Positions 1,338-60,651 of a stretch of 64,000 nt of DNA are shown here, piece after piece (the stretch's first letter is position 1; every line of letters starts with the position of its first letter). The stretch lies in assembly GCF_028372415.1 (NCBI RefSeq), contig NC_092875.1, positions 436,859,377 to 436,923,376 of the forward strand, written 5' to 3'. This DNA is from Notamacropus eugenii (taxonomy: Eukaryota; Chordata; Mammalia; Diprotodontia; Macropodidae). The position numbers and the translations under genes are program-made. The notes below the pieces were generated by a model. That model searched no databases. It worked only from the letters and a program-made list of their open reading frames with translations, and was not told where the DNA came from.

Positions 1338-1451
1338 CTTTCCACATCCACTGATGACATATCCCATTTCATTAGCGTTAAAATGAAAATGAGGCTGTCT
1401 TAAGCCATTGGTGTAAATTCTGAGAGTTCCCAGAGTAAGGGAATTTTCATG
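1338..1451 (-). CDS. Bicupin coding exon 7 (metal site of cupin 2)
   Basis: 38 codons in phase 0: HENSLTLGTLRI, then GLRQPHFHFNANEMGYVISG. H366, H368 and E373 lie exactly 200 residues after their cupin 1 partners. It ends SGCGK at a GTGATT donor. I found no continuation between 1337 and position 1, so the rest of cupin 2 and the stop lie left of the window. Confidence 0.92.
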
Positions 1452-4313
1452 CTGAAAGCAGAAAGAAATATAGATGTTTAGTTAATGCACTCTATTACAA
1501 CATAATAATCTCTTCAAAGTCAGAGGGAAGGGGATATTAGAGGAGTGTTGGCTCTTTCTGATCAATGTAGCTACCCAAGTTAGATCATTCAGAATCCCAA
1601 ATACAAGGTGAGCCCTAAATTCCCTGTCCACAATGCCCTAATTAATCTGTTGTTTGACAAACTCCTCCTGACTTGAAAATATTTATTTTTAAAAGAGAAA
1701 TTTGGATCTTACTCTGTTATAAATTCCAGTGTCTATACAATAATATTCCTCAAATTACCTGATTCAAGGATTCACTGAAAATTTTCTCATTGTCAGTTAG
1801 TCCATTTCCATTTTTTCGATACCGAGCCCATTGAATTATTCCTCCTGGAAATCGAAATTCTTGTGAACCTGAAATAAGAGGAAGTTTGAAAATCACAAGA
1901 CAAACCAAAAGACTTCCAGCCTATAAAAAATGGGAGCAACCACAGGACTCAGTAAGATGTCAGCTTTGTTTTAGGCAGATCAGATGACCACTGGAGGGAA
2001 TGATTTGAGGGATGTCACATGATTCTACTGGTCCCCTGAATCAACATGCTTTCCTTGGGATGCAGGGAGCCATAAAGCTAAAATTACAATTGTATACAAC
2101 TGTGAGTCACTGACATCCCATTTTGCTTGCACCAAAAAAAAGATATGAGGTAACTTCATATCTTTCTAAAAGTGCAAAGAGAAAATCCCCCCAGATCTTC
2201 ACACTGTGAATCTCTTCAGTAATATGAGTTTCATAAAATCCTCATTCGGTTCCACATTTATTGAATATATAAACAATATCACTGCATGCTATATTCATTG
2301 GGTTTGGACCTCAAGAAAAATATCATGTTGCTTCATCCTTTACCTTTAAGATCATAAAAGTATCGCCACACCAGGCTGTCTGGAGACTGTACATAGCTGG
2401 CATTCATAACCAGCTCAGCCAAATTGGGAGGGAGATTGACAGCCTGATCTTCTTCTTGTTTCTGGAACGTTCTAATGAAATTAACTCCACCTTGAGGCTA
2501 AAATGTACAAACAGCAACCCCATTAGTTGTTTTCTTTTTTTAATTGTACCTCTTTAAGACATCAAAGACACAATAGCCCCATCTAAAGTCAAAATACAAT
2601 TAAAAGTTTGGGAAGTATCTCACAAGCATTAAAAGGCCTATCCTGGTTTTATGCCAGCCTTTCCAGCTGAAAGAAATACTGGGAGCATCAGTTGTAAGGG
2701 GCCCTTTTCTTGCCCATGTTTCTCTTAGTTCCTCTACCTCTTCCTCATTTCATCTGGTCACTGGTGCTCAGAAATATCAATCTTGAAACTTGACCTCCTT
2801 CATCTCCCTGCTGGCTACCTCTGCTCAGAGCCCTTACTGGCACACTCTCCAAATTCTACCTATTTCTTGGAACAGTATTTGTTCTCTCAGTAGTTTGCCA
2901 CAAGTCATCTTAAGACTTAGGGGATGTCAAAAGTCACTTTTCACCAGGAAAAGAGTAGGGATCCTTGTCTCAGACGAAGAGCATACAAACATGTGTATCA
3001 AATACATTAAGTGCTTAATGTTTAACTTAAGTGAATTTCACATTACTCCCCAACAAAGTCTTCCAAGGAAATCCCCAAGAAAGGGAACAAAAGCAGTTCC
3101 ATTTCTTTTTTCTAGCATCAGGCAAGACGTACAGGAGGGCCTCAGGAAATACTATCCCAAAGTGGAATGGCCTGCCTTGAGAGGATGCTGGAGGATCACT
3201 TGGGAGGGAGGCTGTAAAAAAGCATTTTTTTTCAAGTAGGAGTTGTGCTGGAAATCCTTCAAGGCCCCTTCTACTCTGAGGTCCTACAATTCTAGGTTGG
3301 ATAACTAGTATAGTAAACTTGAGAATTAATTATTGAATTAAATGTCTTTAGACTCATCCAGGGCCAGATTTCTTCTAGGCCCCACCCTGAAGACCTGGAC
3401 TGGCTTTCATGGTCCATCTAAGTTGATCCAAAGCTTCATGGTGGCGTACACTTCAAGCCATTGTACAAACCTTGAGGGACCTGGATGCAATGTCCTCTGG
3501 AGTAGAGAAAAACACATCATCGACATCCAGAGTCTGAAGCTCATCATGAGTGGTAAAGAAAAGCAGGAAAAGGCAGTCCTCAGTTCCCACATTCTTTATC
3601 CAGTGCAGAATATTTTTAGGAAAGAAGATCACCTGACCAGCAGTGACATTGTATGTGGTGACCACACTGCCTCCATCGTCCACTACACCAATCCAGGCAG
3701 TCCCCTACAGCACAAAGGGAAACACACCATTTGTGTGTGCACAGGTTGGTAATGATGCTTTCCAAATGGCAAATTATATAATAATAACAACTTGGGCTTG
3801 TATGGCACTCTCTATTTTTGCACTGTGTTTGTATATATTGCCATTCTTTCTTTGGGTTCTCACAACACCTCAATGACAGGCAGAGTAGTAGTAGTTCTAA
3901 CACTAGTACTAGTAGCAATAGTTGTAGTAGGAGTAGTAATAGTAGGACCATTTATAGATGAGGAAGTTGAAACATAGACAAGTCCAAGATTGCAGTCCTG
4001 AGTTCATTGAAAAATTTAATTTCATAAGCAGCTCAAAAGCTCACCAGGAAGGAATTTGTGTCTGTTCTCTTATATTTAATAAAACCCATGAAGTGCCAGA
4101 CAGAAAGGAGCCTGATAATGCAGAGGGAAGACAATGAAATTTTCAGTAGATCCTGCTCCTATGAAGGTGAAACTCAACCACAGTATAATTAAAGGCAGGT
4201 TTTTGGCAAAAGTTCAAGTGCAACATAGACATATGTATATATACACATACACATACATACCGATATGTACTCATACGTATGTATTACATGTGTAGTGTGT
4301 ATGTATGTGTGAG

Positions 4314-4344
<31 letters not shown>

Positions 4345-7300
4345 ACAAAGTGCTGGCTCTAGGAGGCAGTGAGATGGCTGAGGAGATACAGCATTGGGCC
4401 CGGAGTCAGGAAGACCTGAGTTCTGGCCTCAGACACTCACTAGCTGTGTTCCCCTGGGTAAGTTACTTAACCCCTTTCTGCCTTGTACTTAGGGGCAAAC
4501 TGCTCCAGTAACTTTGCCAAGAAAACCCCATGGATAATATTGGTATGTTATGGTCCACGGGGACATGCCTGAACTACAACGAAGTGCTTTGCGAGCCCTA
4601 AAGTGCTTGGCCATTTAGTGTTTTCCAGTTGCTTTGTACCTAATAAATGTTTGGTGAACTGAATAGCGTGCAGATGCATCACTCATCTCATCACTGGCTA
4701 ACTCCCCTGCCCTCAAACAGACAAGGTGTGCCAAATTTTGGTGGCCAAGGGAACACAAGCATTGACAGACATCCCCTAGGGGTCTTCTTGAACTGAAGGA
4801 AGGCAACCCCAGAACTACCACGACGCTGTCTGGTCAATGAGTCTGAGATCCCTATCAGATCTCACTTGAACTTTGGCTGAAGCTTTCCTTTCATTATCCT
4901 GTGATTAATTTCCACCCCCATTGGAGCAGGATCCTGAGGTTTCATTGCCTTTGCTCTGTTTTATCACTTTCCCTCTTACCTGGGGCTTCACAAGTTTTAC
5001 TGGCAGTATACATGCATGCGTGTGTGTGTGATGCATATAAGCACTGTATAGCTATTCATGTATGTGTAGATATGTCAGCGTACATGTACGTACACAAAAG
5101 GCACAGAAATTGTAGATGAAGTCATATTTCCAAGGAAAAACAAGCAGGATAATTTCACTAGGGGAAAGCATGCAGACAGAGGAGTCCTATGCAACAAGGC
5201 TGGCAAGTTAAGATGGGCCCAGGTCGTGAGAAACTTTAAATGCTTTTGATTTGTTTTCAAGAATTATGTATATCGTAGCATGTGTATGCAGAAAAGGCAG
5301 TCTGATATTATAGAAAGAGCACTGGTCCAAGGTTAAATCCTGGCTTTGATACTTATTAACTAGGTGACATTATGGAAATCATTTAACATCTCTAAGACTC
5401 AGTTTCCTCATCTGTAAAATGAAAATAATGAAACACGACCTACCTCACAGAGTTGTTAAAAATCCTTTTGTAAACTTTAAAATGATATATATCTTTATTT
5501 GTCACCTATTATTGTAAAAGGGACAACTAGGTGGCACCGTGGATAGAGTGCTGGGCTTGGAGTGAGGAAGACTTATCTTCCTGAGTTCAAATCTAGCCTC
5601 AGACACTTACTAGCTGTGTGACTCTGGACAAGCCCCTTAACCTTGTTTGTCTCAGTTTCTTCATCTGTAAAATGAGCTGGAGGAGGAAATGGCAAATCAC
5701 TCTACTTTGCCAAGATACTAGATGCCAAATGGAGTCATGAAGAGTCAGACAGCAATGAAAATGATTAAACAACAACAAAATTATTATAAGAAATACTGAA
5801 CTAGGATTCAGGAGATCTAGATTCTGGTCCCAGCTCTTCTAAGAAGATTTTAAATAAAGCCTTGGCTTTGGAGTCAGGACCTGGGTTCAAATCCTTTCGA
5901 CTTTGGACCCTGGACTTTCCAAAAGTCTTTTTAACCTCCCTGGATCTCAGTTTCATGGAGTTGACTAGAAGGTCTCAGAGTTCTCTTTATCTCCAAACCC
6001 AAATGTCCTGTGTCTCCATTTCTTTATTTGTAGAATGAAGGTGTTAGAGGAGATGCTCTCTAAAGCATCTTTCGGTCTTAAGATTCTGATTTAAGGTAAA
6101 TAATTAGAAACTGACACTAAACGTGGTTATAATCATTAATTTTTCACATCACATAGAGGTTGGTTGCATATCCCTTAACCAAATCATACAGGCCTAATCA
6201 AATCTGTTCTTTTCTATGAGTGCCTCCCTATATTTTATCTGGACTAAAAGAAAATTCTCTGGCCCTGATTCACAAAAGATGATCAGTTTGCAAAACCACA
6301 GCCTTGATCCCAGGGGCTCCTAATTTCACCTTGGAAAACTGATTCTTTCAGTTACTACTTTTCCTAGAGAGAAATGACAGTTTCTTGGCTGTACATCGGA
6401 ATGGGCATTCACTGCTATTGCCGGCAGTGTTGAACCCTATATAAAGAGACAGCATGGAATAAACAGAGGATCATAATGAGACTTATATAGCAATTTAAGG
6501 CTTGCAGATTTCTTTACGAATATGATCTTGTTTTAGCCTCCAAACAACTAGGAGAGATGGGTATTACTGTTGTCCCTACTGTGAAGATGAGGAAACAGAG
6601 GTTAAGTGATTTACCTGTAGTGCTACAGCTAGATTTGAAGGAAGATCCTCATGACTTTACTTGTAGTGCTCTAGCCACCATGTCCCTTAGATAAAGTGTT
6701 AAGACTTTGTGATAGAGCTTGGGTTTGACTTCTGCCTCCGTCATGGCCAAGTCAATTAGCTTCTAGGCTCCTTAATATCTTCATCTTTTAAACGGAGGTA
6801 AAATGACTTGCACTACCTACTAAATGGGGTCTATTAAAGAGCGGAAGGGAAGGAGCATTGAGTCTGCTATGTGTCAGACACTCTTAAGCTCTTTACAAGT
6901 ATTATCTCATTGAATCGCCTTTAAGTTATGAATCGTTCTTATAAAGTATGTGGTATATGATTTAGCACTTTGGACAAAAGTTACAGTTGATGCCAGAAAT
7001 AATTTAAGCCATGGGGCTAATGTTAAAGCTCTTAAAATACATGGCCCAAATCAGAGGGGCTGTCCTGCTTTCTCAGGCTACAGGTTTTTCAATGATGAAT
7101 ACAGATACACAATATAAATGCTTGCCTTCAGAAGGAGAGCAACCCAGACCTACCTGTGCAAGGTAGCCATGTTCATTGGCATTGAAGTGCCAGTGTGGGG
7201 CACGGAGGCCTTTGCTTTTGATCCTCAAGGTTCCAAAAGTCATGTGTGACTGCTGCCTATTCAGGCTGGTGCCAAAGGCCTCTTCTTCAACACTGAGGTA

Positions 7301-10300
7301 GTCCTTGAGATTATTCCGGTATCGTGCCCATTGGATAGCACCACCTGGGAACTCAAATACCTAGAAAACCATGGACAAAGGGAACTGTCAATAGGGAAAA
7401 TGTCATACTTGAGGGTTAGAGCCACTGTGGACCTGTTTGTTTGGAAGGTGGAGTGAAAGATGAGAGATCAAGTCAATTTTTAAAAAAAAATTCCTAAATG
7501 CTTATTCTAGTCAAGGCACTGTGCTAGGCACTAAAGATAGTCTGACACTCGGGTCTCACTGATAAGAGTGCTTTTTCCCATGATGCAGCTTCCTAACCTA
7601 CCATGCTTGTCAATCTTGTGCAATTTTCTTCCATGTCTCTCATAAATCCACCCCAGGAGAGCCACCCAAAGTGCCCAGGACCTTCCCTCAGCTCTTCTGA
7701 CATTGCAAAGATACCAGTGGAAAAAACCAATACAGCTTTTGCCCTCAAGAAACTTCTCATCTAATTCAAGGATAAGTTGTCATTCAGTCGTGTCTGACTC
7801 TTCAAGACCTCATAGTATACCAGGCCCTTCTGTCCTCCATTCTCTCCTAAAATCTGTCCAAGCTCATGTTTGTTACTTCCATGACACTCTCTGTCCCTCT
7901 CATCCTCCGCTGTCACTTTCTCCTTTTGCCTTCAGTTTTTCCTGACATCAGGGTCTTTTCCAATGAATCTTGTCTTCTCATTATGTGGTCAAAGCATTTA
8001 AGCTTCAGTGTCAGTGGTTAACCTTCCACTGAATAGTCTGAGTTAAGTATTGACTGATTTGATCTTCTTGCTGTCCAAGGAACTCTCCAAAGTTTTCTCC
8101 AGCACCACAATTTGAAAGCCCTTTGTGGCAGTCAGTTTTCCTTATAGTCCAACTCTCACAGTCATACATTGCTTTTTGAGTCATACGCACATATGGGATT
8201 TTCTTAGGAAAGATATTGGAGTGATTTGTCATTCCTTTCCCCAGTAGATTAAGGCAAACAGAGGTTAAGTGACTTCCCCAGAGTCACACAACTAATATCT
8301 CAAGCTAGATTTGAACTTAGGTCTTCCTGACTCCAAGGTCAGCCACCAAGCTGCCTCAGGAAACAAACAAAGCAAAACAAAACACAGCTTTGATTATATA
8401 GACTTTTGCTGGCAAGATGCTATCTCTCCTTTTTAGGACGCTGTCCAGATTTGCCTCAGCTTTCCCTTCAAGGAGTGTTTTTTGTTGCCATCCACAGTGA
8501 TCTTTGAGCCCAAGAATATTAAATCTAACACTGCTTTCATTTCTTCTCTAATTGCCCAGAAGAGATAGGACCACTTGAAGATCTCGAGTTTTTTGAGGTT
8601 AAGCTTCAAAATAGCTTTTATGCTCTCATATTCAAAAAAAAAGCGTGAGTTAAGATAGACTATAATGAGAGCAGTGGAGAGAATCAATATGTGATAAGAA
8701 CCTGGAGCAGGAAGTTAGGGTGGATCTGTTATGGTTCATAGAAAGGGCAGCACCTGGTCTTTACCTTAAATCTAGAGAAGGATAAGCAAAGATAAAGGAG
8801 AGTTCATTCCAAAAAGGGGGTATGGCTTGTAAGATTGCACAGAGGCTGGGAGGTGCAGGAAGTGAATAAAGAATAATTAGGAGGCCAGTTTGGTTGAAAC
8901 ATAAGAGTAAATAAAGGGGAGTAGTGTGTAATAAGACAGGTGCAGTAGACTGCAGCCAGCTTTCTCCTGTAGGTAATAGGGAGCAATGGTTAGAGCAATG
9001 GTTAGACTTAGGTATTTGAAGCTTTTTTTGACAGCTATGGGAAGGATGGATTGGAGAAGGGAGAGGCTGAAGGCAGCAAAGCCAGTTAAAAGGTTTTACA
9101 ATAATTTCAATAGCCCAGGATAGAGGTAACAAGAGTTGAACCAGGCATCTGAACCAGGCTGTATGATTGGAGAGAGCAGATGGGAGAGCAGGCAGTTGAA
9201 AGATTGTTAATTTTGGGGGGGCGAGGGGGGATAGGTAGGAAAAACCACCAGGGACCGAGGTGGAATGTTTCTCAAATTCAATTGTGTTCTCAGAAAGAGG
9301 GAGACTGAGTCTTAGCAGGTGTTGTTGGAGCTCACCAGCCCTTTTCCAGCGCCTTTTCCAGAACAAATGGTCTTATCAAACTCCAGAATGGAAGTCTAGC
9401 CCTATGAGCTTCCACTCTATCCTGCAGGCTTGTCACTGTGCGGCTAAGTTTTGTTAGCTTCTCCCAGCATACCTAGAAGCCAGCCTGGCCATTCGATTCA
9501 TCCCTTACGTTTAACTGCCTATGCTGATTGCTAAGGAAATGAGGCATGGCTGGTTTGGGAGTTTTTTGGATTCAGCTTTGATGTCCCCTCAAGCCACGGT
9601 CCCAGACACCCCAACCCCTGTTACTTTCCTGGTTGACAACAAAGTAGAACATGGCTGGCCCCTCTGGCCAGTCCATTTGCAACCTGGAGGAGATCATATA
9701 ACAAACAACGACATACCCTTTAAGGTTTACACAACATTTTACAAATGTCTCATTTTATCCTCATAACAACCCTGTGAGGAAGGTGCTATCATTACCCCCA
9801 TTTTTAGATGAAGAACCTAAGGAACGGAAAGGCTATGACTGACTGAGATTTGCCCAGGCTCACACAGCTAGTATCTTAAGGCTGCATTTGATCTCAGGTC
9901 TTCCTAATTCCAGGCCTATCATTCTACTACTGTGCCACCTAATCTAGGCCATATGTTGATCCATCTGGCCCTTCTGTTTAGGTAGGGCCCCAGCTATTAT
10001 CTGTTTGCATCCAGAGACTCATTTATTGAAATGTTTCATAAGAACCCAAGTAATTTGAGTGTTTGTTTTACACAGAATGTTGCTTACCTTAGATTTATGC
10101 AAACGATTAAGAAATTGGAATTTAAAGTCAACAGGATTTTCACCCTTTGGGTCAGTGGGAGTCTCTGGTGTTTTGGGAAGGTGGACTTCAGGCTGGAAGT
10201 AAATGTCTGCATGAGACCGGAAGGTGGAAACATAAACCAAGGAGAGTACCAGCACACCTATAAACGTGGTAATAACACAGGCCAGGAGACAAACCAGGAA

Positions 10301-13089
10301 GATTCTTGTTAAAGACCATTGTTTCTTCTTTTCCTACAAGAAATTATGAAACCATTATTTTTTTACTTGTAAGAAATCTGAAAAATAGTTCAAAATCCCT
10401 AATGTTGCTGATAAGAAAATTCAAGGAGAGAGATATAAATGACTTGCTCAAGGTCACACAGTTAATGGAAGAGCCAAGGTTTTGGATTCCTAATCTAATG
10501 GTCTTTCCAATTTTCCCACCTGCCACTCTAACATATTTTAGACATTATTATAATATATGTTAATATAATCAAGTCCAAATGGTCTCCTCTGTAGCTCAGC
10601 AAATTTACATTTAGGTGCATAAAAAGTCAGTTATGTAGATTTATACCTAATAATCTATTCAAAGACAAATTTTTAAAGATTCAAATAATATTGCCACCAC
10701 TTCCTACCTCCCATCCTCTACCCCAGAAACTAATATTTCTTCCTTTAAAAAAAAATTGTCCCTTTGACATACCATTTTCACTGCCCCCTAGAACAATAGG
10801 GTAGAGATAGGGTTGGCCCTATTCATAGATAGACCAAGCAGATGTCTGTGTGGCATTCTTTGTAGGATGCCAAAGCCCAGACTGTGGACATCTAGCTCCT
10901 CCACTGCCTTGCCTGAAGCTCCCATCATTTGCATCGCATTAGTCTGCTGGGTTAAACTATTGTCCCTTCCAAGAACATTCCTGGTCAAAGCTCACTGCTG
11001 ACAGTTACTAGCTTTTATCACCTTCCCTGAGTCATTTAATTGCCTTTAGTCTCAGTTTACTCATCAATGAGATGGGGATTTTAATTTCTTTAGTACAATT
11101 TGGTATAATTTCTTCTTATGAGGTTTTTGAGAGGCGTAAAGGAGAAAATCTATGTCAAGTCTTCATAAATTTTAAAACTATGTAAGTAATAGTTACTAAA
11201 ACACATCAACAAGCAGTTATGGGGGTGGGATGGGAAAGAAAACTCTCAAGGCATTGATAATCATTAACCTAGGTCCCTGGAAGAACCAGATTAGAGAATC
11301 AAGAAGACAGAGAATGAGGGCCAAGAATGGCCCAAAGTAGGATGGGAGAGGGGGATAGGGGAGGGGATGCCTCAATTCAATTCCATTCATTTCAACAAAC
11401 ATTTTTAAAGAGGCTTCTTTATAAAATACACAGTATTTGGTACTGAGGATACAAAGACAAAATGAAACAGGCCCTACCCTAAAGAAACTTATTTTGGGTG
11501 TGGAGGGAGGGGGAATCTAGAACAAATACAAATAAATGGGGAAGGGGTAAAGAAAAGATTTGTATATGCAAAACTACCATTATAAACATTTAGAGCTGAT
11601 GCAGGCTTTAGAAGTCATCTAGTTGCAATCCATATCCAGAAACAGAACTATGGAGTGGGAATGCAGAGCCAGGCGGGCTATTTTCTTTTTTGTTCTGTTT
11701 TGTTTTTTCTTTCTCATGGTTTCTCCCATTTTTTATAACTCTTCTGTGCAACATGACTAATGTGAAAATGTGTTTAATAGGAAAGCATGTGTGTAGCCGC
11801 ATCAGCCTGCATACCATCTTGGGGAGGGAGGGAGAGAAAACTTAAAATTTATGCAAGTCAATGTTGAAAACTAAAACGAAATAAATGAATAAAAAACAAG
11901 AAATCAACTAGTTTAACTTTCATTTTACGTATGAAGAAACCGAGGTCTAGTGAGGGTAATGATAGCTAAGAGATGCCAACTGAAGGTTTGTAAAGGCTTT
12001 GTATATATTAATTATTTAACTCTCATAATAAACCTTCTAGCACTGGTGTTATCCCCACTTTACAGATGAAGAAGCTGAGCATGAGAAGTTAAATGACTTT
12101 TCCATGGTCTCACGGCTAGAAAATATTGGAGGATGAATTTTAACCCAGGTCATTTTGGTCTCCAAGTCCAGACTTCTATTCACTACACAACACTGCTGGT
12201 GCCCAAAGGTTCAATATAATGTTTTTATGATCCACTGTTCCATAGTTTTCTTGGCCTGACAGCTAGGATCAGGGGCAAAAAAAGTCATCTTAAAATAAAT
12301 TTATTCTAATTCATTCACAGCCCTAAATTTTTTTAAAAATGTGGTTCTTTTCAGGTAAAGGAGGGAAAAGAAACTTTTTTTTCTGAATATGTAATAATAA
12401 CTCAAAACTGCATTATTACTTCTTTACATTCTGTTGGATACACAAAACTTATATATCTCATAGATCTGTAAGCATCCCATTCTGTATGTTGATAATTTGG
12501 CCCTGGGTATTTTGAACCTGAAGTTAGGTGACTCAGTGGATAGAGTGCCAGACCTGGAATCAGGAAGACTCATCCCCTTGAGTTCAAATCTGGCTTCAGA
12601 CACTTACAAACTGTGTGACCCTGGGCAAGTCACTTAACCCTGTTTGCCTCAGTTTCCTCATCTGTAAAATGAGGGGGGAAAGAAAATGGCAAACTATTCC
12701 AGTATCTTTGCCAAGAAAACCCCGAATAGGGTCATGAAGAGTCAGAACATGAATGAAAAAAATGAAACATCAACATCATTTTGGACCCAATCATGTTATA
12801 TATCATCTAATTTCAACCCTAGTCTACGCTAGAATCAGAAAATCTGAGCTTTATCAAGAGATTTTGCCTTTTTAAACTCCCATTTTCTCATTAGTTAAAT
12901 GAGGAGGTTAAATTAGATGTGATCTCTAAAGTCCTTAGCAGTTCTAACATTCGTTAAGTCCATATTGGAAGGAAAAGGTAATTAAAACCATAACAAGAAG
13001 CTTACCAGTCCAGAAGAGATGTTCACCTTCCCCATAGATGAGGTAGACGGGATGACATTTTCATGCATTTCAAACGCTGAATTTTCCAT
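1338..13089 (-). CDS. Membrane-anchored bicupin (oxalate decarboxylase-like), 3' end outside window
   Basis: Coding exons join in phase as 13089-13006, 10333-10088, 7360-7154, 3704-3471, 2497-2344, 1868-1759 and 1451-1338, all with AG/GT borders, giving 383 residues before the window ends. Residues 1-38 are a short cytoplasmic tail ending in a KKK/R cluster. Residues 39-61 form one transmembrane helix. About 50 linker residues follow, then two cupin domains. Cupin 1 has H166, H168, E173 and H213; cupin 2 has H366, H368 and E373, with its last ligand outside the window. This matches the manganese-binding HxH...E...H scheme of bacterial and fungal oxalate decarboxylases, and the Arg three residues before the first His is present in both domains (R163, R363). 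Sequons NVT (198) and NAS (289) fit a type II protein with the cupins outside the cell. The substrate is unknown. The position next to C18orf54 is that of DYNAP in placentals. Confidence is high for the gene, lower for its activity. Confidence 0.9.
1759..1868 (-). CDS. Bicupin coding exon 6 (start of cupin 2)
   Basis: 110 bases, phase 1 in and phase 0 out. It encodes SQEFRFPGGIIQWARYRKN and ends ESLNQ. It repeats the start of exon 3 (VFEFPGGAIQWARYR...TSLNRQ), so cupin 2 arose by tandem duplication. Confidence 0.92.
2344..2497 (-). CDS. Bicupin coding exon 5 (inter-domain linker)
   Basis: 154 bases, phase 0 in and phase 1 out. It encodes PQGGVNFIRTFQKQEED followed by an amphipathic stretch, NLPPNLAELVMNASYVQSP, and WRYFYDLK. 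It joins the two cupins and carries a second glycosylation sequon (NAS, 289). Confidence 0.85.
3110..3300 (+). mobile_element. CR1/L3-type LINE 3' end
   Basis: The pattern ...ggaatggcctgcctt...gaggctg...ccttctactctgaggtcctacaattc is typical of the CR1/L3 3' terminus. Confidence 0.6.
3471..3704 (-). CDS. Bicupin coding exon 4 (second half of cupin 1)
   Basis: There are 78 codons in phase 0: GTAWIGVVDDGG opens the strand pair, then VTAGQVIFFPKNILHWI gives cupin motif 2 with H213 as fourth metal ligand. STPEDIASRSLK matches the TP.E..A helix that closes cupin 1 in oxalate decarboxylases. The loop between FLLFF and this helix is shorter than the SENST-type lid of the bacterial enzyme. N198-V-T is a glycosylation sequon. 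Confidence 0.93.
3780..3960. repeat. MIR fragment and (TAG)n microsatellite
   Basis: A MIR-like stretch runs into TAG/TAC repeats at about 3885-3945 and then a short aggaagttgaaac tail. Confidence 0.5.
4225..4345. repeat. TA/CA/TG microsatellite
   Basis: Alternating purine-pyrimidine sequence directly before a SINE. Confidence 0.85.
4361..4590 (+). mobile_element. Marsupial tRNA-type SINE
   Basis: Head gaggcagtgagatggctgag, core cagacactcactagctgtgt, tail actttgccaagaaaacccca. Nearly full length. Confidence 0.88.
5290..5490 (+). mobile_element. MIR-like SINE
   Basis: Contains cctggctttgatactta, cagtttcctcatctgtaaa and cctacctcacagagttgtt, the MIR core and tail order. Confidence 0.75.
5519..5780 (+). 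mobile_element. Marsupial tRNA-type SINE, full length
   Basis: Starts ggacaactaggtggcacc and ends gaagagtcagacagcaatga followed by AACAACAACAAAA. Confidence 0.93.
5790..6095 (+). mobile_element. MIR-like SINE fragments
   Basis: Two decayed, head-to-tail pieces with gagtcaggacctgggttcaaatc and tagaatgaaggtgttagagga. Confidence 0.55.
6475..6690 (-). mobile_element. MIR-like SINE
   Basis: Reverse MIR order: ...gatgaggaaacagaggttaa and gtgatttacctgtagtgcta. Confidence 0.7.
7154..7360 (-). CDS. Bicupin coding exon 3 (first half of cupin 1)
   Basis: There are 69 codons in phase 0, starting VFEFPGGAIQWARYR and containing GLRAPHWHFNANEHGYL. H166, H168 and E173 are the first three metal ligands of cupin motif 1, and R163 matches the arginine before HWH in oxalate decarboxylase. 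Exons 6 and 7 repeat this stretch closely. Confidence 0.93.
7778..8640 (-). mobile_element. RTE (BovB-like) LINE, interrupted by a SINE
   Basis: The minus strand encodes FIFLGSKITVDGN region residues (DLIFLGSKITVDGNKKHSLKG) and, further on, MYDCESWTIRKT, both signatures near the end of the BovB/RTE-1 reverse-transcriptase ORF. A SINE splits it at 8193-8362. The ORF is broken and the copy is 5' truncated. Confidence 0.85.
8193..8362 (-). mobile_element. Marsupial tRNA-type SINE inside the RTE copy
   Basis: Reverse orientation: ggcaaacagaggttaagtg, tcacacaactaatatctcaa and ggtcttcctgactccaagg. Confidence 0.85.
8690..9235 (-). mobile_element. L2-clade LINE fragment
   Basis: Shares the landmarks of the L2 copies at 0.6 and 44.7 kb (aggtaatagggagc, aatagcccaggatagaggta). 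Heavily decayed. Confidence 0.5.
9240..9700. other. Intronic DNA without recognised feature
   Basis: Apparently unique sequence between repeats; no coding or RNA signal seen. Confidence 0.4.
9715..9945 (-). mobile_element. MIR-like/marsupial SINE
   Basis: Reverse order: caaccctgtgaggaaggtg, tcacacagctagtatctt and ctactgtgccacctaat. Confidence 0.75.
10088..10333 (-). CDS. Bicupin coding exon 2 (transmembrane helix and linker)
   Basis: The acceptor TTGTAG precedes 82 codons, phase 0 on both sides. EKKKQWSLTR leads into the hydrophobic segment FLVCLLACVITTFIGVLV, then a Pro/Thr-rich linker (KTPETPTDPK) and FKFQFLNRLHK. The core CLLACVI..IGVL is what I recall of the human DYNAP membrane segment, which is the basis of the proposed orthology. 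Confidence 0.9.
10370..10525 (-). mobile_element. MIR-like SINE
   Basis: gacttgctcaaggtcacaca and following, reverse orientation, in the intron just upstream of bicupin exon 2. Confidence 0.65.
11380..11530 (-). mobile_element. L2 3' end
   Basis: caacaaacattt...ggtactgaggatacaaagac...ggccctaccct, the reverse of the L2 terminus. Confidence 0.6.
11590..11905 (+). mobile_element. L1 3' end (marsupial L1)
   Basis: Ends ...tctcatggtttctcccattt...gggagggagggagagaaaac...aaattaaaacgaaataaatg-like tail. 5' truncated. Confidence 0.75.
11990..12195 (-). mobile_element. MIR-like SINE
   Basis: ctttacagatgaagaagctg and the reverse MIR core. Confidence 0.65.
12521..12775 (+). mobile_element. Marsupial tRNA-type SINE, full length
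   Basis: aagttaggtgactcagtgga to gggtcatgaagagtcagaac, followed by an A-rich end. Confidence 0.92.
13006..13089 (-). CDS. Bicupin coding exon 1 (start codon, cytoplasmic tail)
   Basis: The ATG at 13089 opens 28 codons (MENSAFEMHENV...ISSGL) that end at a GTAAGC donor in phase 0. The peptide is polar and acidic with no signal peptide, as expected for the cytosolic end of a type II membrane protein. A TATA box lies 112 bases upstream. An AG after a T-rich stretch at 13120-13119 could alternatively make this a second exon. Confidence 0.85.
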
Positions 13090-20707: not shown

Positions 20708-21175
20708 CTACTCCTTATTGCCAGAGACAATTCTGAAGAGTAACCAATTTGCCTGGCATGAGGTACTATCTACCTGGTCTGTCCTGCCACTTTTCTTCCT
20801 CCTTTCAAGGAGCTTGCTCTCTTTTTCCCAGCTCTGTTCATCTGTTCCCTTTTCTTCACTACCTTCAGAGAAGTTCATTTTACTTCGGGCAACATCTTCC
20901 TCAAATAGACACCTTCCCTTAATAAGACAGTCCTCCAATTTAGGAATGAGCAGTTTCTCAAAAGCTTTCTTTTTAAACTGGCTGTTTGGAACAGTATTAT
21001 AAATGGTGCCAAGCTGGCACAAAGACTCAATTAACCCATAATATTTCTGGAGTATAAAACCATTTATGTATAGCATTGTTTCTATGGGGAAATTAATTCT
21101 GAGTTTTAACTCAAAATCCCTGGAATAAAATCCTGCAAAGCCAGTGACTACAGTTTCCCTGACTATGGCATCCAT
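20708..21175 (-). CDS. Unidentified 155-codon ORF
   Basis: It starts MDAIVRETVVTGFAGFYSRD and continues with a helical stretch QKYYGLIESLCQLGTIYN, a basic segment FKKKAFEKLLIPKLED, then a Glu/Lys/Ser-rich tail. Composition looks protein-like rather than repeat-like and I do not recognise the family. It lies in intergenic DNA between the bicupin promoter and the C18orf54 3' end, boxed in by a hAT MITE at 20.6 kb and an L1 head at 21.24 kb. No poly(A) tail is visible after the stop. A TGA stands three codons before the ATG. A CAG|GTAGAT inside the tail could be a splice donor. It may be a retrocopy, an exon of an unknown gene, or chance. Confidence 0.3.
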   Translation of the reverse strand: MDAIVRETVVTGFAGFYSRDFELKLRINFPIETMLYINGFILQKYYGLIESLCQLGTIYNTVPNSQFKKKAFEKLLIPKLEDCLIKGRCLFEEDVARSKMNFSEGSEEKGTDEQSWEKESKLLERRKKSGRTDQVDSTSCQANWLLFRIVSGNKE

Positions 21176-21237
21176 TACTTTTTCAAATTGCCAGAGAAAT
21201 GGGTAGGGCTGGGGAGCTTTTCATAAGAAGGTAGCAG

Positions 21238-52200: not shown

Positions 52201-55200
52201 CTCTCTCCTATTCTACCCATTCAAGTCCTTATTCAAATCTCATCTTCATAAAGCTTTCCCTTAACCCAACCAATAATAATCTCCCTTCTCTGCATTCTCA
52301 CATCATTTTTTGTCCATACCACTTAGTCATTTTCTTTTTTATGTAAGGTTTCTCTTTAAATTGTAAACTCCTTGAAGACATGAAGTTTACATCCCCCACA
52401 GCACTTAGCACAGTTCTTGCACATTCGTACACAAAAAACTGATACTAACTAAAAAAGAATGGCATTCTGTTTTAGGTACTCTTAACCTATAGTGCATGAA
52501 CCAGTTTTAAAAACTATTTTCATAACTGTATTTCAATATAATGATTACCTTTGTAATCCCATGTATTTTATTTTATATATTTTAAAACATAATCCTAAGG
52601 AGTCCATATGCTTTATCAGACTGATACAAAGGTCCATGACACAAAATTATTTAAGAATCTGTTCTATTTGAAGAAGATAAACATAATAGAAAACTAAGTA
52701 AGTAGGAGTAAGCAGCCTTGTTGGGAAAAGCAAATGCATATATAACATCCATTCCTATTCAGATTAACAATGATTTCTTCCTCCTCTGCTTCCTTCATTC
52801 TTATTATTTATATTTTACAGAGAGAATATATATAGCACAGTTGTACAATGGAAGTTCCAAGTCCACAACCAAGGAAATAAAGGAGAAGCTTACAGAATCA
52901 CAGATCAGAGAAAGGGGGCCTCTTTCTGCGCTTATGATTATTTCTTCACTTAATTTTTCTTTGATTGGAGTCGTCAAGCTTGGTCTTTACAAAGAGAAGG
53001 CTCTCTTTCCTCCAAAATTATTACTAGTTATTAATAAGTCTTATTTTTCTTTATATCTACCTCAATCTCTTCATATGCCTGATAATACATGAAATGTCAC
53101 ACAAAGGCATCTATAAAACAATCTGACTACTCCTTCAAAATAAGACAGAATGTGCTTATTTTTTCACCTTTTGGAATAAAGAAGGAAAAAAAGTGGAAAT
53201 TATATATGTTGTATGGAGTTATAAGTAAGACTTAATACCATCTTTTGATGCAAATAAGAATCACAATTTAAAATATAGAAGACAGTGCTAATGGTATACA
53301 ATTACCATTTTTGTGTTTATATATAGGGTGTGCTAAAAGTCTTAGTCTTAAGATTTCTGGGTCATTCTGCATAAAGTCCTTTTATCTGAAAAACTGCTCC
53401 CAAGGCAAATTTCCTCAAGTGCAAATCTGACCATGTGATTTCTCTACTCATTCCAGTGGCTAATTGCCTCTAAGATAAAATGTAAATTCCTCATTACCTT
53501 TTAAAGCCCTTCACAACCTTGCTCCACAGTATTTTTCCAATCTTACTACCTCATTGAAATGCAGCCAAAATGGCTTTTTCTCTGGTTCAACACACAACAC
53601 ACACTCTCATGTTTGCACCACCAAGATGCCACAACCCATGCCTGGCATATGCTCCTTATGTCTAGAGTGTCATAGAGGCCATCTTTTCCTTTAAAATGGA
53701 GCCTACCACCCTATTTTCTTGATGAAGGCTTTACTGATTTGACTGTTAGTGCCCTCCATCTCAGATTAACTTGTATTTAACTACTTTATATGTGTATAAG
53801 TATCTATTAATTTTACATTTATACTATATATATATATATAGACATGTCTACATGTCTATACCTATATCTATATCTCTCTCTATATATACACTTGTCTATT
53901 CCATTAGAAGGGCATTGTGAATATGGACAGTATTCTGTTTTTCTGCTTGTCTCCCCAGAAGTGCTTAATAAAAACTGGTGGATTAATTTCTATTTTTTCC
54001 CATTCCAATCAACACTATTGCTTACTCACAAAGTAACTGGGATATTTTCCCATGATCTTTCTGCTTCTAGTATATCTAAGGAGCAGGGACTGACATCATT
54101 TTTCTTGGTACTTGATAATCCTTCAGAAGAATGCTCTAGAGTTCTCTTGGCCTTCAGGATAAGCAATTCAATTTTGTCATCTATATTTTTTGAAAAATAA
54201 AATTAGATATTTAAGAAAAGTGAAATGCAATATCGTTACTCTAGAAAGATAAACTATCACTCAGATCATAGATTCACACAATCTGAATTGTGCATAAGCA
54301 GCAATACTTAAAAAAAACAAGCAATGTTAAAATTAAATTTTAGAGAAACAAAAAAGAAAAATGCAAACAAAAAATATATGTAAACTGAATTCCATACAGG
54401 GTTAAATATAAAAGTCCCTGTATGTTATTAGCTTGTTTCTCAGATTTAATAGCAAAATTGTAAAAGAAAAGTTACCACTGAATGGCTTTTTGGATTGCCC
54501 TGAGAAAGGTGTACTCTCGTACTGAAACTGACCAAGTTCACAACTGTGTTTACAATTAACTAATACTCTGTCACTCATGGAATCTGAAATGCTACAGTGA
54601 TTAAGTGAATGTTCACAACAATCCAATTTATCAGCAAACTGAGTTTTCCTTTTCTCCATATAAATGTGTTGTTTCTTTTTTTGCATCCGAGAACTACTTT
54701 GCCTGGATGAATTGGGTAACAGATCTTGATCATGTAGCCAAAGCGGATAATTGTAATCAGGAATACTAGTTATCCCTGACACATTAAGCTCAGATTTCTG
54801 GCTAGTAAGCCATCTTGGGTAATTTTTTCTAGTTTGATGTTCTGAAGTTTCTTTAGAAGGCATCTCTGAAGAATATTCTGATGATGTAGAAATATATTTG
54901 CAATGTTTATTTGAAGCATTTTTTATCATGCCACAATGTTTTTCATTGGTATCTGAGAATAGAACAGGAGTAAACAGGTCCTCATTTCCCACAGGATTGC
55001 AAGGATCTAGAAAACTAGGATTCCTTTCATTTTCTGATGAAGCATTTTTAAGAAATTTTCTGTCCTGTTTGCTATTTTGATGTACTGATCCAATATAAGT
55101 ATCGGTGGGCAGTGATCCATCTGGTGGAAAACGTACTAGATCATCAGTAGTTAGGCTAATAGAATCTATGTCACAAGTCATCTGGTTTTTACAAGACGTC

Positions 55201-56606
55201 TTTGATCGTTTGAAGTCAAAGTCTTGAAAACCTAAAAAAAAGCATGTTGCATATCTGTGATTATCCATATATATATAAACATATATAAATATGTAACATA
55301 AATATAATTATAAATGTTTATGAATGTAATGACAAGACTAGCTACAATTTAAAAAAACATTTTTTTCTTCTCTCCTCTCCTAAAACACTTTACAAGTAAA
55401 AATAAAGTTATCCATGGTTCACAATATTTCACCTCTTTGTTTCTGTGGGCCATATGTCACTGTCATTCTCTTGCCTAGTATGTTTTCTTGTTTTACTCAT
55501 TCCAGTTATTCTCTATCCTCTTTTCTTTCCTAGGTTTTTTGTTTCCAGTTATTCTACTGGGCCTTTTTCTTTCACTGTCTGCCTTAAAGCCTGAATATAA
55601 AGCCTCCTAGCCTTTAAGTGTCCCCTTCAGTCCCCTGTCAGTGCCAAATGAAGAAAAGAAAGGGAATGATGGATCAGGCCAAGGATTTGGAAGAGCAGTA
55701 TTTTTAATAATATCAAAACACTATCGTGGACTGAGCACTTAATTTTTATTTGATCAAAACTGGTGTGAGAGGAAGGAAAAAAGCACAGAATTAAAGAACT
55801 ATTAAATTAGGAAGGAATCAGAGGTCATGTAATCCAAACTGTTGTTTTTTTGTTTTTTAATAGATGAGGAAATCAGAACCAAAGAAGGTAGGTTAAATCA
55901 CTTGTTCAAGGTTGTTATTAGTGACCAGGCCAACAACAAAATCCATTTCTAGTTTAGAGTTCCTTCCTGTACACAGCAGGAACATAATCAAATAAAAGAT
56001 TTACTCCCTTAAATTACTCAATGCATTTTATCCTCTAGCTTCCTCTTACCACTATCAATGAAAAGAATCATAGAAATGTTAAAACTCAAAAAGTTAACAG
56101 ATCTGAAGTACCATGAACTAAAAAGAATCTGCAACTGAAAAAGCTTGGGAACCAAATAATTACATAACAATTTTATGTAAGATCAGGTTTTGTAAAATAA
56201 TTCTTATCTAGTCTTCTCTCCCCATAAAAACTAATATTCCAAAAGTACAACGCATAAAATTGTTGCACATAGTTAAAAACATAGCAAAGTACAATGAAAG
56301 CATACCATTTGGGGATTTAGAAAGAAATTTGGAGAACTTGGAATTCCGAGCAAGGTAAGACTTTCTAATACTTTTATCATGAGACATACAATTTAGCTCA
56401 AAATCATCAATGTAGGCCTGTAATGCCTGAGAAGCAGAGCTGTAAAGCTTGTTTTTATACTTTATGGAGCCACTGAAGTCAGAGGAATTACTGCTGTTCA
56501 AGCTGCAACTTGCTAGAAGAGAAGACACTGTGGATTTAGGAGGATAAACGCTGCATGTTTTAATTGGTTTTGCCATGATTTTCTCAAAATGGGCTCCTAT
56601 TTCCAT
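31133..56606 (-). CDS. C18orf54: C18orf54 / lung adenoma susceptibility protein 2
   Basis: Coding exons join as 56606-56306, 55231-54476, 54180-54030, 50557-50455, 48827-48696, 34477-34416 and 31250-31133 (stop). Phases 1, 1, 2, 0, 0 and 2 agree across every junction and the product is 540 residues. Recognition rests on [15 protein letters not shown] and [15 protein letters not shown] at the N-terminus, [11 protein letters not shown] in the middle, and [19 protein letters not shown] and [17 protein letters not shown] at the C-terminus, all hallmarks of LAS2. Most of the long exon is Ser/Asn-rich and probably disordered; conserved helices cluster near the C-terminus. The protein was named from a mouse lung tumour susceptibility locus and its biochemical role is poorly known. 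The start could be M1 (56606) or M11 (56576, MAKPIK). An upstream noncoding exon in the CpG island is likely. Confidence 0.95.
31280..32260. other. C18orf54 last intron, mostly unassigned
   Basis: Plus-strand text at 31950-32180 faintly resembles an L2/CR1 endonuclease region; the rest shows nothing. Confidence 0.35.
32265..32425 (-). mobile_element. L2 3' end
   Basis: ccaggcactgagcttggtgc ... tcaagaaatttacattttta. Confidence 0.7.
32925..33035 (+). mobile_element. SINE fragment
   Basis: ggcctcaaagtcagaaccac, within a decayed SINE head. Confidence 0.55.
33100..33960 (+). mobile_element. L2-type LINE, 3' half
   Basis: ttcaacagttccctactgct ... taccacctccttcatgaagt ... ataagctcttgaagtaagag ... 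caaatgtttgctgtatt, the order seen across the L2 3' region. Confidence 0.7.
34416..34477 (-). CDS. C18orf54: C18orf54 coding exon 6
   Basis: 62 bases, phase 0 in and phase 2 out: [28 protein letters not shown] is a conserved stretch before the C-terminal helix. It sits 14 kb from exon 5, across the L1/ERV nest. Confidence 0.9.
34530..34605. repeat. TA/CA microsatellite
   Basis: Alternating TA/CA/TG sequence next to C18orf54 exon 6. Confidence 0.8.
35160..37350 (+). mobile_element. Decayed L1-like sequence (5'/ORF1 region)
   Basis: A-rich plus-strand DNA with ORF1-like remnants (atggatagaatccacacaga) and a SINE tail fragment at 36595-36675 (minus). Frames are broken; edges unclear. Confidence 0.45.
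37675..37990 (-). mobile_element. L1 3' UTR, antisense
   Basis: tttagcattcacttccataa, gattttgagttccagatttt, ccctcccaaag: the complement of the L1 terminus present forward at 46.14-46.44 kb. Confidence 0.7.
37995..38155 (-). mobile_element. L2 3' end
   Basis: agtgcttattgagagctcac ... aaggagcttacattctaatg. Confidence 0.75.
38160..38690. other. A-rich intronic DNA
   Basis: Probably old L1 sequence; no firm landmark. Confidence 0.35.
38705..38914. mobile_element. Nonautonomous hAT transposon (MITE)
   Basis: Starts CAAGTATTCTTAACCG and ends TTAAGAACCCCTG; flanked by CTTTAAAG and CTTAAAAG as 8-bp target copies. Same family as 56713-56882. Confidence 0.8.
38930..39700 (+). mobile_element. Decayed L1 ORF2-like sequence
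   Basis: A-rich plus strand resembling the L1 endonuclease region; no usable frame. Confidence 0.4.
39720..40150 (+). mobile_element. L1 ORF2 3' fragment
   Basis: tttgcatcaagtatctttgg, caaaggtctgatatctaaga, typical of the ORF2 end of marsupial L1. Confidence 0.75.
40780..41171 (+). mobile_element. L1 ORF2, left part (split by ERV copy)
   Basis: aaattggactgcaaaagatt ... cagaccataacacaataaaa, the end of the endonuclease domain. It continues at 43201. Confidence 0.75.
41172..43200 (+). mobile_element. Endogenous retrovirus RNA copy: R-U5-internal-U3-R-poly(A)
   Basis: A fossil of an LTR retrovirus family. It begins at the R start, about 30 bases past where the 3' U3 TATA (42863-42870) would direct transcription. 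R repeats at 42893-43186, where ATTAAA (43164) precedes an A tract (43187-43199). Ten-base flanks at 41162-41171 and 43201-43210 match at nine positions. It is inserted in L1 ORF2. It has no coding capacity and is too short for a complete virus. The two R copies are clearly diverged, so it is old. Confidence 0.8.
43201..44035 (+). mobile_element. L1 ORF2, right part
   Basis: ctgagatgcagctaaagcag ... tcctggtcctgaagaattca ... agtgggaccagggatgcaag, the start of the reverse-transcriptase domain. Decayed and 3' truncated. Confidence 0.85.
44040..45620 (-). mobile_element. L1 (antisense) split by an L2 copy
   Basis: L1 ORF2 complement at 44040-44260 and 45075-45620. Between them 44265-45060 is a minus-strand L2-clade LINE whose translation gives [20 protein letters not shown] followed by ALHNL, the end of an L2 RT ORF. 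A TA microsatellite sits at 44430-44535. Confidence 0.7.
45625..45800 (+). mobile_element. SINE fragment
   Basis: caagtcaggaagacctgggc, with the different tail also seen at 57.9-58.07 kb. Confidence 0.6.
46140..46445 (+). mobile_element. L1 3' end
   Basis: gccaaagaaagaactgatgg ... atttggaactcaaaatttta ... acatgtaattggggc. 5' truncated. Confidence 0.85.
46450..46925. other. Intronic DNA, possibly L1 antisense remnant
   Basis: AT-rich; no landmark strong enough to name. Confidence 0.3.
46930..47216 (+). mobile_element. ERV LTR fossil (partial)
   Basis: An LTR-like 3' part with caataaaaga-type poly(A) signal (47105 region) and the following R/U5-like gttattgggcccaggtgtaa. Different family from the 41.2-kb element. 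Solo and incomplete. Confidence 0.6.
47220..47630. other. Intronic DNA without recognised feature
   Basis: Nothing firm seen. Confidence 0.35.
47635..47965 (+). mobile_element. CR1/L3 3' end
   Basis: aagggctatttgaaggacta ... ggtaggctgccctaggaggt ... cttcactctgaaattctatg. The best-preserved copy of this family here. Confidence 0.8.
47970..48690. other. C18orf54 intron sequence without firm feature
   Basis: A weak L2-like 3' end may lie at 48465-48600 (ggtgcttaataaatttaact). Confidence 0.35.
48696..48827 (-). CDS. C18orf54: C18orf54 coding exon 5
   Basis: 44 codons in phase 0: [18 protein letters not shown] then [13 protein letters not shown]. This is the most conserved helix of the family. 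The donor is GTAAGC. Confidence 0.94.
48905..49205 (-). mobile_element. MIR-like SINE
   Basis: accaccctgtgaggtagata, gatgaggaaactgaagttca, aaggtcacacaactagtcag. Confidence 0.85.
49210..49985. other. Intronic DNA without recognised feature
   Basis: A short L2-like start (caacaaacatttattgtgca, 49639) is the only landmark. Confidence 0.35.
49990..50120. repeat. AT-rich palindromic tract
   Basis: Nearly pure A/T with many TATAAT and ATTATA inversions. Confidence 0.75.
50455..50557 (-). CDS. C18orf54: C18orf54 coding exon 4
   Basis: 103 bases, phase 2 in and phase 0 out: [14 protein letters not shown] and [15 protein letters not shown], flanked by a TTTAG acceptor and GTAAGC donor. Confidence 0.9.
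51070..51530. mobile_element. SINE fragment, TG/TA microsatellite, MIR pair
   Basis: SINE 51070-51140 (plus), alternating repeat 51150-51290, MIR-like pieces 51300-51525 (tcctcagtttccacatcttt). Confidence 0.7.
51530..52165. other. Intronic DNA without recognised feature
   Basis: No gene or firm repeat seen. Confidence 0.35.
52170..52445 (+). mobile_element. L2 3' end
   Basis: ccattcaagtccttattcaa ... ttgtaaactccttgaagaca ... acagcacttagcacagttct. Confidence 0.75.
52450..53390. other. Intronic DNA; mariner TIR scrap at 53325
   Basis: ORF 52718-53092 has no recognisable content. gggtgtgctaaaagtcttag (53327) is a mariner-MITE end. Confidence 0.35.
53395..53790 (+). mobile_element. L2-type LINE fragment
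   Basis: tccagtggctaattgcctct ... aaagcccttcacaaccttgc ... cttgatgaaggctttactga. Confidence 0.65.
54030..54180 (-). CDS. C18orf54: C18orf54 coding exon 3
   Basis: 151 bases, phase 1 in and phase 2 out: [19 protein letters not shown], a predicted helix, then SWENIPVT. The donor is GTGAGT. The sequence agrees closely with the human protein as I recall it. Confidence 0.92.
54476..55231 (-). CDS. C18orf54: C18orf54 long central exon
   Basis: 756 bases, phase 1 at both ends, after a T-tract acceptor. It encodes 252 residues that begin [10 protein letters not shown] and are rich in Ser, Asn, Lys and acidic residues, with [15 protein letters not shown] and [15 protein letters not shown] as a repeated YP.WL motif. 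It ends KKPFSG at GTAACT. Confidence 0.93.
55270..55790. other. Intronic DNA without recognised feature
   Basis: Nothing firm seen between the first two coding exons of C18orf54 except a MIR at 55795-55960. Confidence 0.4.
55795..55960 (-). mobile_element. MIR-like SINE
   Basis: taatagatgaggaaatcaga and aaatcacttgttcaaggttg. Confidence 0.6.
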
Positions 56607-59265: not shown

Positions 59266-60000
59266 ATTTAATTTTCATTTTACAAAATGCCCCAAGTCCT
59301 ATACCTGGATAAGAGGGTGAAAAAGCAGAATGGAGCTGCCTTAAAGACAAAGATAACGGCTACGACTAGCAATGCAGGCGGCAGGGACCCAGAAGGAATA
59401 AAATGAATCACTCTCCTTCCTGCGCAGGTGAGCCCCGTTCTAGGTTACCTGACCTCCGGATTCCCGGCCCAGCCTCCCACCGACACACAAGCTTCATTCC
59501 CCGCTTCTCCACCTGCTGCTTCCACGCCCCATTGTTGCAAAGAGAAGCATCATCCAATGATGTTCTCCGGGGGGTCTGGACTAAGCGGGGCTCACCGGAC
59601 CCGGAGAAGCGGCCTAAAGCCTCAGCCCACCCAAGGAAGGGGAGTGGGGGATGGGGGGGATGCCGCCAAATGCCCGAGGAAGGACGCGAAACAGGGCTTC
59701 AGGGATTCTTCCACAGTCAGGGGGCAGGAAATTATTTTTCATGGAATTAACTTTACTCGATAACCATCCACGCTGACTTCCCGTGCATAATGATCTCCCT
59801 GACCCAGGGAGAGCTGAGTGTTAAACACCACGGCCCTACGGGGCCTCCCCCAGACGGCCCCGGCTCCGCAGGGCCGGGCCCCGGAGGCCGCTGTCGGTTC
59901 CTCCTGCAGGAGCTCCTCGCGCCTTTAGTCGCCGCTTACGGAGAAGCGGTCTCCCCCAGGGGGGCCGACTTCAGCCAGCCTTCAGCCTCCCAAACCAGAC

Positions 60001-60181
60001 GCGTTCCCCGCCCCCGCCCCCGCCCCCGCCCCCGCCCCCGCCCCTCGGGGCGCGTTCCCCGCCCCCATCCCCGCCCCTCGGGGCGCGTTCCCCGCCCCCG
60101 CCCCCGCCCCTCGGGGCGCGTTCCCCGCCCCCACCCCCGCCCCTCAGGGCACGTTCCCCGCCCCCACCCCGCCCCTCGGGG
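60001..60181. repeat. 33-bp GC-box tandem array
   Basis: A first unit of about 50 bases made of repeated CCCCCG is followed by units at 60051-60083, 60084-60116, 60117-60149 and 60150-60181. Each unit reads CGCGTTCCCCGCCCCC... and ends CCCCTCGGGG. It holds many GGGGCGGGG Sp1/KLF boxes, and the minus strand has runs suited to G-quadruplexes. Confidence 0.93.
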
Positions 60182-60538
60182 CTCTTCCCCCAGCCCGCCC
60201 GCGTCCTTTCGGTCCCCACGGCGCCTCCTCCCCGCCCGCCCCGGGGCGTGTACCTCTGGCCCCGCCCCCTCCTCTTCCTCCTCCCTCCGGGTCCCCGCCC
60301 TCATGAACCTCCCCGGGCGGTCGTCGCCAGCCCACCTTCCCGGTCGCTCCTAGGCCCCGGACAAGGGACTACACAAAACGGGACCCATTTCCGTGACCCC
60401 GGCTCGATGTTCGGTGCACCCACGGATCCCGGGCAGGAGCGACGCATAACCCCCGCGATCGCCCCTCGCCTGGGCCCTTGCAGCCCCGTCACAGCGGAGG
60501 GTAGCGCGTCGCCCTGCCTGTCTTTCAAACCGACTTAC

Positions 60539-60640
60539 AAGTGGGAGCACGGGCTGCACGCATGCGCGGTATTCGTTCGGCTTGGGGAGGCGAGAGGGTG
60601 GGAGGCTTGAACTGAGGAGATGTGGGGTGGCGGAGGTATG
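60539..60640 (-). other. Predicted noncoding exon 1 of C18orf54
   Basis: CTT|GTAAGT at 60539/60538 on the minus strand is a strong donor inside the CpG island, just downstream (in the sense of transcription) of the ZNF143 motif. The upstream edge is a guess. Confidence 0.45.
60556..60568. promoter_or_regulatory. NRF1-like site
   Basis: GCACGCATGCGCG resembles the palindromic NRF1 consensus (CGCATGCGC core) and lies about 85 bases from the ZNF143 motif. Confidence 0.45.
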
Positions 60641-60651
60641 TTAGCCGCGGC

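Follow-up and report, generated by a model that had tools for sequence, protein, structure and literature searches.

Gene structure and genomic context

The window analysed here is a stretch of 64,000 nucleotides (C14:436859377-436923376) from one assembly of the 3.45 Gb genome of Notamacropus eugenii. As claimed in the preliminary description, it contains seven exons with AG/GT borders, all on the minus strand, that join in phase to encode 383 amino acids. Exon 1 (13006..13089) provides residues 1-28, predicted to be cytosolic, and ends at the donor GTAAGC; its ATG at 13089 is preceded in the genomic DNA by an in-frame stop, with no other Met between the two. Exon 2 (10088..10333, residues 29-110) encodes a CLLAC transmembrane anchor and a stalk. 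The first cupin is divided between exon 3 (7154..7360, residues 111-179) and exon 4 (3471..3704, residues 180-257), the latter carrying H213, the sequon N198, and the loop D233-E234-L-Q-T237. Exon 5 (2344..2497, residues 258 to approximately 308) encodes a linker with the sequon N289, exon 6 (1759..1868) begins the second cupin, and exon 7 (1338..1451, residues 346-383) contains R363, H366, H368, and E373 of that cupin.

Because the end of exon 7 is a donor site, the gene continues past the window edge at base 1. Two further minus-strand exons were located by tblastn in the 60 kb left of the window: exon 8 (C14:436858555-436858701), which completes the predicted metal site of cupin 2 with H411, and exon 9 (C14:436856798-436856932), which encodes the C-terminus and ends in a TAG stop. 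The full gene has nine exons, comprises 1431 bases including the stop, and encodes 476 amino acids. While the exons of the 383-residue product first described are correct, that product is incomplete.

This is the sole gene matching Cupin_1 in the 3.45 Gb genome according to an exon-by-exon search, an approach that can miss weak ones. Six candidates were scored and the two that matched are both exons of the bicupin gene. When the cupin part was shuffled 20 times, no shuffled version matched at E ≤ 0.01 across the same 324 kb around the gene, so the cupin match is not due to chance. The sequence supports an intact gene for a membrane-anchored bicupin in a vertebrate.

The gene lies between LAS2, which we take to be C18orf54, and RAB27B. 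All three are on one strand, as in the human C18orf54-DYNAP-RAB27B block. Upstream, a LAS2-domain open frame (PF15792, E 3.4e-10) spans 54405..55307 on the minus strand, with the genome search matching at 54831-55040 (E 6.0e-8), and a second minus-strand LAS2 exon lies at 54074..54184 (E 1.9e-10). RAB27B was absent from the 124 kb and 324 kb around the gene and was found farther out, downstream and on the same strand (C14:436298259-436314444). Three of its stretches are 97, 86, and 76% identical to the RAB27B protein used as query; a fourth, 50% identical and with stops, spans non-coding DNA. The human gene order is given as MBD2, SNORA37, POLI, STARD6, C18orf54, DYNAP, RAB27B, CCDC68, TCF4, a list in which C18orf54 and DYNAP are directly adjacent (PMC4868023). 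One study reports DYNAP from birds and an ortholog from alligator (PMC5327406). Another assigns it to an amniote-conserved block and describes it as absent in galliforms and passerines (PMC5327424), such that the two papers conflict over galliforms.

Several other features were observed. Another chromosome carries a LAS2 copy that is broken and contains two stops (C1:172570649-172570816). A GC-rich island at window positions 59500-61499 reaches 60-78% GC in four 500-base steps, compared to 30-42% around it, and is perhaps the LAS2 promoter. A minus-strand open frame of 170 residues (20711-21220) has no Pfam match. Rfam returned no matches over the window.

A shared CLLAC anchor

The CLLAC domain (PF15675, a family presumed to include human DYNAP) is encoded at 10232..10321 on the minus strand, corresponding to residues 33-62. 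Its match to the full protein (E 4.6e-13) scores 48.9 bits, above the curated cut-off of 25. A whole-genome search found the domain at four sites, all contained in approximately 215 kb of the C14 minus strand; besides the bicupin gene, these are three DYNAP-like genes located 160-215 kb downstream of it. In those three genes, the anchor exons run straight into tails rich in Ser and Thr, with open frames of 121, 1464, and 2693 residues from the acceptor and Ser plus Thr contents beyond residue 40 of 51, 72, and 56%. Exon 2 of the bicupin gene has no such tail and ends at a splice donor. A search for relic exons gave no cupin match at E ≤ 1 in the 240 kb holding the three DYNAP-like genes. The two long Thr/Ser-rich frames, of 1464 and 2693 residues, belong to minus-strand genes at C14:436687567 and 436655565, approximately 172 and 204 kb beyond the left edge of the window, and by their look would encode giant membrane mucins.

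These observations make it very improbable that the gene is dead, untranscribed, or an artefact such as bacterial contamination: its nine exons are intact and separated by introns, its neighbours are vertebrate genes, and its anchor is common to the DYNAP-like genes. Contamination and recent gene transfer were both rejected in view of the introns, neighbours, and shared anchor. In addition, a prokaryote scan with the single protein, covering one genome for each of 84,980 species in a mode that reaches close relatives only, returned 46 pattern matches and confirmed no relative among them. A scan of viral contigs gave three pattern matches and no relative.

Domain architecture, metal sites, and topology

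The 383-residue part matches Cupin_1 (E 3e-27) and CLLAC (E 3.8e-13) in Pfam, and thus the original cupin reading holds. With the full 476 residues, matches are obtained to Cupin_1 (E 2.3e-37) and Cupin_2 (E 2.2e-16) alongside CLLAC. The two cupin halves are 47% identical over 149 columns.

Each cupin contains a predicted site of three His and one Glu, together with an equivalent of the substrate Arg. In cupin 1, the predicted ligands are H166, H168, and E173 (HxH-x4-E; 7172..7195, minus strand) and H213, with the Arg being R163 (7202-7204, minus strand); both sets of coordinates were worked out from the borders of exon 3. In cupin 2, the predicted ligands are H366, H368, and E373 (HxH-x4-E) and H411, and the Arg is R363. 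Both arginines named at the outset are therefore present. The HxH...E...H sites proposed for the two cupins also exist as motifs, though H411 lies outside the 383-residue product.

The protein has a single hydrophobic stretch at approximately residues 35-64, in agreement with the one transmembrane helix expected; the best twelve 19-residue hydrophobic windows begin at residues 35-46. Residues EKKKQW..R precede this stretch. Human DYNAP was found by experiment to be a type II protein with its C-terminus outside (PMC8329785). From the basic residues before the helix and this topology, we infer that the N-terminus is inside and the C-terminus outside. Of the sequons, N198 and N289 would lie on the outer side, as described at the outset, whereas N23 would fall inside.

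Relationship to prokaryotic bicupins

Bicupins of this sort occur in bacteria, fungi, and plant seeds. A search of plasmids returned 67 records, all below 60% identity to the query. In an alignment-based scan of prokaryotes, 578 of the 596 matches listed were relatives; the best 80 of at least 578 were retained and are 23-31% identical to the query. Together with six proteins from plasmids, these made a set of 86 bacterial proteins, of which 85 gave two domains; one (L112) was left out as a single motif was found. Given that domains were selected by the HxH...E motif, the constancy of this motif among them is uninformative. The equivalents of R163 and H213, in contrast, are identical in 85/85 N domains and 85/85 C domains of this set of the best 80 of at least 578 plus plasmid proteins.

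In a tree built from 62 domains, cupin 1 and cupin 2 of the query came out as sisters (support 100/99). The query and a set of chlamydial proteins with one archaeal protein group apart from domains of the oxalate decarboxylase (OxdC) type (99/93). A first tree drew on 38 of the 85 bicupins, while the final tree and the approximately unbiased (AU) tests used 30 of the 85, hand-picked and with L102 omitted. The AU tests, whose groups were named after the first tree and whose alignment has only 123 columns, disfavour joining cupin 1 with OxdC N domains (p 0.0018) and cupin 2 with OxdC C domains (p 0.0033). They also disfavour joining cupin 1 with chlamydial N (p 0.0097) or chlamydial C domains (0.011), and cupin 2 with chlamydial C domains (0.00036). 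L102, an Alicyclobacillus bicupin, has the most similar halves of the 85 (47%, within the best-80-of-at-least-578 and plasmid set); it forms a long branch that was weakly joined to the query (77) in the first tree.

As cupin 1 and cupin 2 are closer to each other than to any other domain compared, they appear to have had a duplication of their own, and we consider a separate duplication probable on the basis of these trees. Two comparisons point the other way. First, the domains of cupin 1 and cupin 2 are 44% identical, which is within the range between bacterial N and C domains (median 37%, maximum 47% among the 85 bicupins from the best 80 of at least 578 and plasmids) and would count against a separate duplication. 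Second, profile scores are near-equal for cupin 1 (74.4 chlamydial N, 71.2 OxdC N, 67.5 OxdC C, 67.2 chlamydial C) and cupin 2 (69.6 chlamydial N, 65.7 OxdC N, 68.0 OxdC C, 63.7 chlamydial C), with a slight lean of cupin 1 to OxdC N and of cupin 2 to OxdC C that would run counter to it. Gene conversion could mimic duplication, yet cupin 1 lacks a counterpart of the intron that separates exons 6 and 7.

Comparison with oxalate decarboxylase

The gene product was originally described as being of the oxalate decarboxylase type. If it were a true cell-surface oxalate decarboxylase, it would cleave oxalate in a Mn-dependent manner at its N-terminal site. Known parts of OxdC include the lid SENST161-165 with Glu162, the residues Arg92 and Arg270, Trp132, and the Trp96/Trp274 pair (PMC3585803, PMC11433825, PMC8254039). 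In favour of this function, OxdC chains are the best matches in a single-sequence PDB search with the 383-residue part (E 8.6e-16), the NCBIfam model TIGR03404 (bicupin_oxalic) matches with E 2.6e-44, and R163 and R363 correspond to Arg92 and Arg270. However, the TIGR03404 match scores 151.8 bits, below the cut-off of 254.2.

The lid provides mixed evidence. The DELQT sequence of cupin 1 fits the motif [SD]E..T, which is present in 72/77 OxdC-type N domains, 0/77 OxdC-type C domains, and 0/14 chlamydial-type domains; the corresponding NQLQT of cupin 2 does not fit. (OxdC-type bicupins are here the 85 minus seven chlamydial-type proteins and L102, a split made after some of the loops were known.) An OxdC-N profile and one further alignment place DELQT, and hence E234, on the SExxT lid with a two-residue gap, whereas a MAFFT domain alignment sets E234 off the lid Glu. 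The loop is 13 residues long in both query cupins, compared to 15 in OxdC-type N domains (77/77), 12 in OxdC-type C domains (77/77), and 12 in chlamydial-type domains (14/14).

The tryptophans argue against the decarboxylase function. The position of Trp132, as assigned through the OxdC rows of the PDB alignment, is I205 in cupin 1 and Val in the other cupin; it is W in 77/77 OxdC-type N domains of the best-80-of-at-least-578 and plasmid set. Of the Trp96/Trp274 pair, the first is kept as W167 and the second is replaced by F367. These two positions are W in 77/77 OxdC-type N and 77/77 OxdC-type C domains, respectively, although the scan pattern required at least one domain to have W or F. In OxdC, Phe in place of residues of the pair strongly lowers efficiency (PMC8254039). 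With both Trp132 and Trp274 lost, OxdC-like redox chemistry may be gone. These losses, the sub-threshold score, the shorter loop, and the AU tests lead us to regard a true oxalate decarboxylase as quite unlikely. The original assignment draws support from the ligands, arginines, top PDB match, and, across a two-residue gap, the lid-like DELQT, but fails on several other marks: by its sequence, this is a bicupin with OxdC-like parts that is similar to a standard OxdC and yet set apart from it by those marks.

Predicted physiological role

Taken together, we are inclined to favour a nine-exon, CLLAC-anchored bicupin whose two cupins arose by their own duplication, which is a tandem relative of the DYNAP-like genes, and whose ectodomain acts enzymatically on a small carboxylic acid. 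The parts of this prediction differ in strength. The gene, its anatomy, and its locus are held with high confidence, while action on a small carboxylic acid is tentative and falls somewhat short of an even chance. Stated more broadly, the gene is probably a member of the DYNAP locus that encodes an ectodomain metalloprotein for small carboxylates.

In the favoured model, the gene and its DYNAP-like neighbours are tandem relatives within the C18orf54-DYNAP-RAB27B block. The protein's short N-terminal segment would lie in the cytosol, and a DYNAP-type CLLAC anchor would keep the two cupin barrels on the cell exterior or in the Golgi lumen. In each barrel, three His and one Glu would coordinate a single divalent metal, and the Arg would be placed to hold a carboxylate; two metal sites with a nearby Arg suggest that a small carboxylate is held at a divalent metal. 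Cupin 1 is the likelier active site, given that only this cupin has the lid-like DELQT. The loss of Trp132 and Trp274 argues against the full OxdC mechanism and leaves sensing, or a small-acid reaction such as an oxidase-like one, with a smaller chance of decarboxylation.

An oxidase or dioxygenase whose substrate is a small acid, such as oxalate or a 2-oxo acid, and whose site has a shorter loop is one such option. The query loop, which is intermediate in length between those of OxdC-type N domains and those of OxdC-type C and chlamydial-type domains, is in line with this, and changes to the lid convert OxdC into an oxidase (PMC3585803). We nevertheless think this specific activity unlikely. 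To our knowledge, the short-loop group of bicupins has no characterised member, and this counts against it.

A non-catalytic surface sensor or binding protein is rated slightly higher, though still as rather doubtful. Its barrels would bind metal and perhaps a small acid, and its anchor would signal or recruit dynactin. Human DYNAP, with the same kind of anchor, binds parts of dynactin and is located in the Golgi and plasma membrane (PMC8329785), and the missing Trp132 and Trp274 are also compatible with a sensor. However, all eight metal ligands and both Arg residues are kept, likely beyond the needs of a bare scaffold, and the lid-like DELQT of cupin 1 also speaks against a sensor.

Origin and significance

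It is possible, though we would not presume it, that the DYNAP locus began with the bicupin, an old vertebrate surface metalloenzyme under this reading. Its anchor exons would then have been copied in tandem, the cupins lost, and Ser/Thr-rich tails grown to produce membrane mucins. Human DYNAP would be a small survivor, with the enzyme having been lost en route to humans. If true, this would account for the anchor and the outer tail of DYNAP; the last exon of the human gene encodes a membrane segment and a Ser/Thr-rich tail (PMC8329785).

Human DYNAP transforms cultured cells (PMC4540312, PMC8329785). A vertebrate membrane-anchored bicupin at the locus of this gene may point to where DYNAP came from, and it predicts cell-surface chemistry or sensing of small acids that humans may lack. 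In the open-access literature, no paper was found that joins a cupin with dynactin-associated protein. Searches judged by title and the start of the abstract gave no paper on such a protein among those on vertebrate cupins or oxalate decarboxylases. Likewise, the papers listed included none on a marsupial cupin of this kind, on an animal bicupin of this kind (by title), on a cupin-bearing member among articles on CLLAC or on DYNAP with dynactin (by title), or on a vertebrate or lancelet oxalate decarboxylase. These negatives cover open-access papers, and database annotation of the gene may exist.

Comparison with known systems

Four known systems are most relevant to the bicupin. It shares with DYNAP (dynactin-associated protein, C18orf26, human 18q21.2) a CLLAC anchor, as well as a predicted type II topology and the C18orf54-RAB27B locus. 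Unlike in human DYNAP, the anchor exon is spliced on to two cupins. The human protein is 210 amino acids long with the Ser/Thr-rich tail in its anchor exon and has no cupins at that length (PMC8329785).

When the PDB was searched with a profile combining the query and seven short-loop relatives, MncA (Synechocystis Sll1358, PDB 2vqa; E 1.2e-56) was the top match, followed by OxdC, and bacterial and seed bicupins were among the matches. MncA differs from the query in being bacterial, and its match says little on the query alone, as 7/8 rows of the profile are prokaryotic. OxdC/YvrK (PDB 1j58, 4met) shares with the query two cupins, four predicted ligands in each, and the Arg92/Arg270 equivalents, and its lid may correspond to the DELQT of query cupin 1. 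Relative to this enzyme, the query has a shorter loop, no Trp132, Phe for Trp274, a membrane anchor, and cupin halves that are nearer each other than to the OxdC halves. The bicupins of Chlamydiae and a Nitrososphaeraceae archaeon (L036-L038, L062, L066, L082, L091) resemble the query in their short loops, lack of Trp132, and grouping (99/93), and are 25-30% identical to it where aligned in full (6/7). They differ in that their N and C halves form sets of their own and none of their 14 domains (14/14) has the lid motif.
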